From: Marinoscillum sp.
Lineage (GTDB): Bacteria > Bacteroidota > Bacteroidia > Cytophagales > Cyclobacteriaceae
Assembly: GCA_024305105.1 (NCBI GenBank)
Contig: JAMWZA010000023.1
Coordinates: forward strand, 1 to 50,406
DNA length: 50,406 nt
Reading direction: 5' to 3'
The notes below the pieces were generated by a model. That model saw only the letters and a program-made list of their open reading frames with translations. It did no database searches and was not told the origin of the DNA. Positions within the stretch are counted from its first letter, which is position 1; the number at the start of each line of letters is the position of its first letter. Made by a program: the position numbers and the translations under genes. This document shows positions 37,447-37,732 of this stretch, one piece after another.

Positions 37447-37479
37447 CAGTTGCTCTATCCTCCCGATAGCTATGGAACC
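37447..37479 (-). pseudogene. Degenerate copy of the tRNA-Arg 5' half with altered D-loop
   Basis: CAGTTGCTCTATCC (37447-37460) and AGCTATGGAACC (37468-37479) are identical to 37378-37391 and 37397-37408 of the real tRNA. Between them the tRNA's AGTTG is replaced by TCCCGAT. The 5' flank also resembles that of the true gene (AACTA...TAGCAAA around a small hairpin). Anticodon loop and T arm are absent, so it cannot make a tRNA. Confidence 0.8.
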
Positions 37480-37535
37480 ATCAACTAGAATTTCTAGCAA
37501 AGCGTTTCAGTTTTTGATCAAATCAGAAAACGATG

Positions 37536-37622
37536 CGGAGAGAGGGGGATTCGAACCCCCGGTACGGTTTCCCGCACGCATGTTTAGCAAACATGTGGTT
37601 TCAGCCACTCACCCACCTCTCC
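37536..37622 (-). tRNA. tRNA-Ser (anticodon GCT)
   Basis: On the minus strand GGAGAGG pairs with TCTCTCC; a class II variable arm is present (GTGCGGGAAACCGTAC region); the anticodon stem CATGT/ACATG closes loop TTGCTAA, anticodon GCT decoding AGC; T arm GGGGG-TTCGAAT-CCCCC. Length 87 with discriminator G. CCA is not encoded. Confidence 0.95.
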
Positions 37623-37682
37623 GTGAGTTTTAACTCAAATTAAAGTCCATTACTGAACTTATTCATAATCCTCCCAAAAAAG

Positions 37683-37732
37683 TGTGGTTTCTCCCGATAC
37701 CTATCGGGAACTCACCCACCTCTCCGTGAGTT
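37683..37732 (-). pseudogene. Degenerate copy of the tRNA-Ser 5' half carrying an inserted palindrome
   Basis: TGTGGTTTC (37683-37691) and the 23 bases at 37710-37732 match 37594-37602 and 37607-37629 of the real tRNA-Ser and its leader exactly. The intervening AGCC of the D-loop is replaced by the 18-nt palindrome TCCCGATACCTATCGGGA (37692-37709). The remainder of the tRNA is missing. Confidence 0.85.

Follow-up and report, generated by a model that had tools for sequence, protein, structure and literature searches.

Endonuclease ORFs accompanied by duplicated gene ends are known from fungal mitochondria, and have been described for atp6, atp9, cox2, and nad3 of Glomus and for atp6 of Allomyces (PMC3630166). 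The bacterial tRNA loci considered here resemble the cases presented there in that an endonuclease ORF (of the GIY-YIG type in atp9) lies in an essential gene, a replacement end is supplied, and the native end is left outside (PMC3630166). Judged from the leaders in the locus under study and from the layout of the tRNA-Met, tRNA-Asp, and tRNA-Val loci, a replacement end would indeed be carried and the native end would lie beyond it. However, the mitochondrial cases concern protein genes (PMC3630166), whereas those described below concern bacterial chromosomal tRNA genes, come in a 5' and a 3' type, can form tandem arrays, and have hairpins in the half that is displaced. A second likeness is to SegB of T-even phages and related free-standing GIY-YIG homing endonucleases, whose genes also adjoin tRNA genes and for which tandem amplification of a tRNA-nuclease segment is described in the portions of the literature at hand (PMC2988022, PMC13096335). 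In contrast to our elements, SegB is phage-borne, and the corresponding portion of PMC13096335 reports no favoured tRNA isotype; replacement halves and hairpin-disabled copies are likewise not mentioned in the available portions of either source (PMC2988022, PMC13096335). The nuclease encoded at tRNA-Leu in the genome studied here matched 13 phage records, with 33–35% identity in the best 10 of the 13. Among the best-ranked matches in the open-licence PMC literature, none described GIY-YIG elements linked to tRNAs in Bacteroidota. The palindromes of REP/RAYT systems are short and occur at several intergenic places. The palindrome at our locus is similar in both respects, but differs from them in that no link to a RAYT was found, many hairpin sequences are involved, and the positions in tRNA loops recur.

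The locus lies in a 50,406-nt stretch of Marinoscillum sp. DNA (GCA_024305105.1, contig JAMWZA010000023.1; hereafter, the window), and consists of a tRNA-Ser and a tRNA-Arg gene with one promoter-like box in front and one terminator-like hairpin behind (Table 1). The box, TATATTTG, presumably represents the Bacteroidota promoter consensus. An earlier note, made from the letters of the sequence, had described a truncated 5' copy in front of each gene, and this was confirmed with ARAGORN, BLAST E values, and shuffled sequences: the halves matched their own tRNAs with E values of 4.9e−5 (Ser, 16/16) and 6.4e−4 (Arg, 14/14), and because both tRNAs are on the minus strand, the copies are on the 5' side with respect to transcription. 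Alignment also bore out the presence of a full palindrome in one copy and its half in the other. The Ser copy comprises tRNA positions 1–16 and 21–29, with positions 17–20 (GGCT) exchanged for the 18-nt palindrome TCCCGATAGGTATCGGGA, and the Arg copy comprises positions 1–12 and 18–39, with D-loop positions 13–17 (CAACT) exchanged for ATCGGGA. The statement that the D-loop alone differs holds within the retained halves, but not past approximately position 29 (Ser) or 39 (Arg), where the copies diverge from the tRNAs, nor in the anticodon loop of the Arg copy, which differs too. The palindrome, with up to two mismatches allowed, matched the window once, compared with 0.00 times in 100 shuffles. 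A deletion between two direct repeats (ATAGCT), of which the first lies in the tRNA and the second at the center of the palindrome, could account for the half palindrome in the Arg copy. As had been proposed, the halves could be co-transcribed with the tRNAs, to judge from their position between the promoter-like box and the two genes. The spacer at 37623..37682 contains an ATG frame of 8 codons plus a stop, which is too short for a nuclease, and a GIY-YIG profile search gave zero matches on the window contig; neither window copy has a nuclease ORF beside it.

Table 1. Features of the tRNA-Ser/tRNA-Arg locus, numbered by position in the window
Feature	Position	Strand	Basis or remark
Hairpin and T-run 3' of tRNA-Arg, probable operon terminator	37297..37333	minus	Read from sequence
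tRNA-Arg(TCT), intact	37334..37408	minus	ARAGORN; its 5' half and leader are probably the added copy
Putative new tRNA-Arg leader	37409..37438	minus	Unlike the leader in five same-genus relatives (z 0.2 to 1.9)
Truncated tRNA-Arg 5' copy (probable original 5' end of the gene)	37439..37479	minus	BLAST and leader comparison
ATCGGGA, half palindrome inside the Arg copy	37461..37467	minus	Read from sequence
tRNA-Ser(GCT), intact	37535..37622	minus	ARAGORN
Spacer and putative new tRNA-Ser leader	37623..37682	minus	Read from sequence
Truncated tRNA-Ser 5' copy (probable original 5' end of the gene)	37683..37725	minus	Alignment and leader comparison
18-nt palindrome in place of the Ser-copy D-loop	37692..37709	minus	9 occurrences in genome
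Promoter-like box TATATTTG	37809..37816	minus	Also before tRNA-Ser in same-genus loci L261–L265

Comparison with five relatives of the same genus (G001–G005) revealed empty sites. The tRNA-Arg gene has no 5' copy in any of the five, and the tRNA-Ser gene has none in G001, G003, G004, and G005, while G002 has its own copy with a hairpin. These sites agree with the proposal that DNA was added inside the tRNA genes together with a copy of a tRNA half. Decay of full tandem tRNA genes was also considered for the window loci and was rejected, as a single intact gene is present there in the relatives and each upstream copy is a 5' half. For Arg, the leader preceding the truncated copy matched that of the intact gene in G004 (29/36, z 7.7) and G002 (27/38, z 7.0); the match was weaker in G005 (z 4.3) and in G003 (z 2.2) and absent in G001 (z 0.0). 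Likewise, the leader of the truncated Ser copy matched those of G004 (75/98, z 12.1) and G003 (z 5.1), with a weak match in G001 (z 2.1) and none in G005 (z 0.2). The leaders directly before our genome's own intact Arg and Ser genes gave z values of 0.2 to 3.0, the Ser leader of G001 fitting the intact-gene side slightly better than the copy side (3.0 vs. 2.1). A clear match on the copy side was thus obtained in two of five relatives for Arg and two of four for Ser. Because the leaders of these relatives match that of the truncated copy, the truncated copy is probably the old start of the gene, and the working tRNA would therefore have received a new leader and 5' half. Other loci also vary within the genus. 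At tRNA-Gly(GCC), our genome and G004 have the copy, and G001, G002, and G005 do not; among the tRNA-Leu(TAA) loci compared, a 5' element with a nuclease occurs in our genome only and is absent from G001, G002, G004, and G005, and 3' copies occur in G004 and G005. Large tRNA-integrating islands were considered as a source of the copies, and none was present in the flanks examined, where the spacers measure tens to hundreds of bases.

The window copies have counterparts throughout the genome. Among 28 tRNA genes (the set comprises at least 28, with 150 of 338 candidates scored), BLAST against their own flanks and manual reading identified interrupted copies at 15. At E < 1e−3, eight genes have 5' copies and six have 3' copies; upstream copies are mainly 5' halves and downstream copies 3' halves, and one upstream copy (Val-GAC) extends to the 3' end of the tRNA. 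The palindrome itself occurs exactly nine times in the 5.76-Mb genome, compared with zero occurrences of the reversed control. Seven of the nine lie inside half copies, each of a different tRNA; the copies of Ser, His, Thr, Val, Gly, and Met are on the 5' side and have the palindrome in the D-arm, and that of Cys is on the 3' side and has it in the T-arm. The remaining two (L002 and L004) are not near a called tRNA. This distribution is in line with a shared mechanism, as the earlier note had it, here acting on many tRNAs, and it is not a scatter without tRNA association. A search for the half palindrome with a D-arm, allowing up to three mismatches, yielded 49 matches compared with 33 for the reversed control, and the window match was the only exact one; nothing firm was drawn from it.

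In a search of relatives, the exact palindrome was found in 20 of 59 genomes, our own included. Thirty-two of 65 examined copies, from 17 relatives, lie within 400 nt of a tRNA, the 65 comprising 5 of 29 copies in G051, 10 of 11 in G006, and none from G038 and G050. A pattern combining the D-stem with the palindrome identified 63 stretches, four of which have record titles without a Bacteroidota taxon (two “bacterium,” one Chlorobiota, and one Rickettsiales). The record titled Rickettsiales bacterium NP5 (PBTY01000003.1) appears to be mislabelled, as it corresponds to the same-genus relative G004. A same-strand tRNA follows within 600 nt downstream at 66 of 82 such sites, although the pattern was chosen to be tRNA-like and the count is hence no test of association. 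A GIY-YIG ORF, in some cases a fragment, was detected in only 10 of the 63 stretches, and the exact D-loop hairpin of our genome occurs alongside a nuclease ORF at three tRNA-Met loci (L138, L140, and L178). In UKL13-3, 11 units with 80-bp spacing precede tRNA-Asn, and 8 GIY-YIG ORFs and 7 hairpins with 410-bp spacing follow it.

Pairing appears to be the property that the inserts share. In the remnants found on the far side of nuclease ORFs, 32 of 36 inserts fold as hairpins better than shuffled sequences (p < 0.05), the other 4 not being significant. In our own genome, the same level was reached by 9 of the 17 inserts scored in tRNA-adjacent copies. Among 24 inserts that we picked from the far-side remnants, there are 18 different 5' arms, and pairing rather than one sequence is thus common to them. 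The inserts replace anticodon arms and T-loops as well as D-loops. A library match to tRNA-Gly-ccc_17 was dismissed as an artefact, the ARAGORN call itself containing the palindrome. These observations bear on the suggestion that a REP-like palindromic mobile repeat enters the hairpin loops of structured RNA genes and is tolerated in tandem tRNA copies. Such a repeat would fit the seven of nine palindromes in tRNA copies of our genome and, among 20 tRNA-distant loci that were scanned, the same palindrome within the RNase P RNA genes of three relatives (L068, L095, and L098) and the cobalamin riboswitch of one (L092); at two further tRNA-distant loci, a group II intron match lies nearby and does not cover the palindrome. 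Some palindromes of G051 also lie, by manual reading, at terminator-like sites. However, we consider this explanation improbable, since the inserts differ in sequence with pairing kept, in place of scattered intergenic copies of one sequence, and since the nuclease genes and replaced leaders are not accounted for. The idea of a REP-type palindrome as the agent, which the earlier note favoured, was further weakened by the replacement of anticodon arms and T-loops, and the expected link to a REP-associated transposase failed to appear: five Y1_Tnp loci had zero palindromes in their fetched flanks.

A different candidate agent emerged from small GIY-YIG nuclease genes. Our genome has six GIY-YIG matches, one of them UvrC-sized, and three of the five small ones occur at tRNAs that have half copies, namely tRNA-Leu, tRNA-His, and tRNA-Met. 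At tRNA-Leu(TAA), the order is leader, 5' copy with a D-loop hairpin, GIY-YIG ORF, repeated 44-bp leader, and intact tRNA; at tRNA-Met and tRNA-His, a mirror-image, 3'-type version with a nuclease ORF is found. Small lone GIY-YIG genes are present in 13 of 13 Cytophagales-group genomes and in 14 of 24 others of the phylum. In the first set of 13 genomes, from which long frames (455 aa or more) were removed beforehand, 32 of 80 small matches are no more than 500 bp from a tRNA, with 27 located on its 3' side and 5 on its 5' side. The corresponding count for a second set, 24 genomes drawn from across the phylum, is 28 of 54 after removal of long frames (271 aa or more) and six already counted rows of our own genome, with 22 on the 3' and 6 on the 5' side. 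For the 37 genomes together, 60 of 134 small matches are thus tRNA-linked, compared with a chance adjacency that we estimate at approximately 1%, and all 60 are on the same strand as the tRNA. Tandem units were counted singly, the 60 genes representing 50 fetched loci by our own row count. The nucleases tried are approximately 80–100 aa in length; six of them gave zero NCBIfam matches above the cut-off, and the single PDB match was a weak likeness of the Met nuclease to the small GIY-YIG proteins of UPF0213 (1zg2, E 0.053). From these searches, no separate DNA-binding domain was seen.

At the loci examined, the 3' type begins with the tRNA and a terminator, which are followed by the nuclease ORF, a remnant of that tRNA bearing hairpins in the anticodon arm or T-loop, and a copy of the terminator; in the 5' type, a remnant with a D-loop hairpin precedes the ORF, and the ORF precedes the tRNA. 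Near-identical terminator repeats are found at Met, Asp, and Val, as is the leader repeat at Leu. On the far side of the ORF, a remnant of the tRNA concerned is present at 39 of 57 loci with enough flank, compared with 22 of 228 mismatched-isotype pairs, and at E < 1e−5 the counts are 30 of 57 and 2 of 228. No far-side remnant was detected at 18 of the 57 tRNA-linked loci tested. When random tRNAs were compared with the 3' flanks of tRNA-distant nucleases, a remnant was recorded in 4 of 284 pairings. Plain local tandem duplication, of leader and 5' half or of 3' half and terminator through slippage or repair, has also to be weighed: survivors would keep one intact tRNA, hairpins would accumulate in the spare, and the nuclease would be a bystander or later guest. 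In favor of duplication, copies of 5' halves are located upstream and those of 3' halves downstream, the arrangement needed for the tRNA to survive; arrays such as the 11 units of 80 bp exist, and 53 of the 63 D-loop-hairpin stretches are without a detected nuclease. We nevertheless regard it as unlikely, because it leaves unexplained the same-strand nucleases at 60 of 60 tRNA-linked sites, the fact that the intact window tRNAs have unrelated leaders, and the isotype-specific nuclease lineages described next.

The tRNA-linked nuclease domains matched PF01541, with Y, G, R, H, and E conserved in 54 to 57 of 57 (R 57, H 57, and E 56). When each genome and isotype was represented by one row, the nearest homologue in another genome served the same isotype in 37 of 48 cases (5.3 expected by chance; maximum of 18 in 2000 permutations) and a different isotype in 11. 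In a tree of 121 domains, from which sequences that were shorter than 60 aa, had more than two stops, or were identical had been left out, both the tRNA label (11 changes, compared with a shuffled mean of 40) and the isotype (31 changes, compared with 55) were clustered, and 31 non-tRNA nucleases formed a separate clade. The tRNA label was assigned within 800 bp for the trees and 500 bp for the counts. Five rows labelled “no tRNA” were placed in or next to tRNA clades; for three of them, a remnant of the tRNA predicted by the tree was identified (L119 Thr, L244 Met, and L247 Met), and for the other two, at contig ends, no remnant was found. These results point to a fixed target, the same site across species, at the level of the isotype only.

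The anatomy of the loci, the empty sites, the strand bias and tRNA adjacency of the nuclease genes, their isotype specificity, and their conserved active-site residues were all observed directly, and the interpretation in terms of a shared mechanism is, as a whole, partly supported, with the small GIY-YIG nuclease gene as the best-supported agent. From the sequence comparisons, we consider it probable (roughly 0.64) that the copies were left by tRNA-specific, homing-type GIY-YIG nuclease elements and that those in the window are nuclease-less remnants. A complete element would combine a small nuclease ORF with a substitute half of the tRNA, accompanied by a leader in the 5' type and by a terminator in the 3' type. 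On entering a tRNA gene, the element would leave the old half outside, truncated and inactive, and the half that it supplies would restore the tRNA. The putative nuclease would cut the tRNA gene and drive the spread, and repeated insertion would give rise to tandem arrays. In the inactive copy, one or more loops (D-loop, anticodon arm, or T-loop) are exchanged for an insert, usually a hairpin, which would disable the old half. The window copies may be 5'-type elements from which the nuclease ORF was lost or in which it was never present. In the element allele, the old half is disrupted by a hairpin, yet an intact tRNA is regenerated at the locus. Because this intact tRNA, and sometimes its flank, is regenerated unchanged, nothing evident would protect the filled locus from its own nuclease. 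Replaced flanks, with a new leader or terminator beside the intact tRNA, could confer immunity at Arg, at Ser, and at the 3' copy of tRNA-Leu in G004, but not at Leu, Met, Asp, and Val, where the leader or terminator is duplicated, and this explanation was rejected. A broader proposal, which we put forward tentatively, is that these are undescribed selfish elements of Bacteroidota, in which isotype-specific, single-domain GIY-YIG nucleases invade tRNA genes and give a replacement half, hairpin pairing is selected as self-protection or insulation, and nuclease-less copies are mobilised in trans.

A role like that of SegB, in which nuclease breaks amplify tRNA segments against tRNA-cleaving toxins or defences and the half copies are by-products, was also considered. 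SegB is reported to amplify in this way in phage T6 in the available portion of PMC13096335, and the tandem arrays of nuclease and tRNA parts, such as the 8 ORFs and 7 hairpins beside tRNA-Asn of UKL13-3, would suit such a role. However, the repeats are hairpin-disabled, so the dosage of working tRNA should not rise, and most arrays examined have one called tRNA, with pairs at Asp (G006 and G024) and Val (G006); we therefore regard this role as quite improbable. Should a large share of small lone GIY-YIG genes be parasites of tRNA genes, these genes would gain a function, many tRNA half copies would be explained, and an example from bacterial chromosomes would join the endonuclease elements that supply a new end to the essential gene they invade. 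The loci would also make it testable how a nuclease exploits a site restored by its own insertion, and they would offer natural collections of putative tRNA-specific nucleases for which empty and filled sites can be paired within a single genus.

Several minor observations were made in the course of the analysis. Full-length tRNA-like copies with hairpins in both the D- and T-loops and largely kept stems occur at L071 of G019 (tRNA-Ile(GAT)-like, approximately 1066–1170) and at L169 (tRNA-Phe-like, approximately 4010–4110, minus strand). At L262 of G001, a full-length Arg-like copy with CCT in the anticodon region and a long T-loop insert lies 3' of tRNA-Arg(TCT), and a second Arg-like match lies 255 bp further on. 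At L222 (1728–1737) and L226 (1731–1740), the nuclease ORF ends within the tRNA-Arg gene that follows it, its stop codon falling among the first ten bases of that gene. The small GIY-YIG genes of our genome that are distant from tRNAs (L186 and L188, at C190 and C275) are flanked by repeats, for example, gcgaagcaatctc at C275, and the tRNA-distant group, including these two loci and the 31-row clade, may have a repeat partner of its own.
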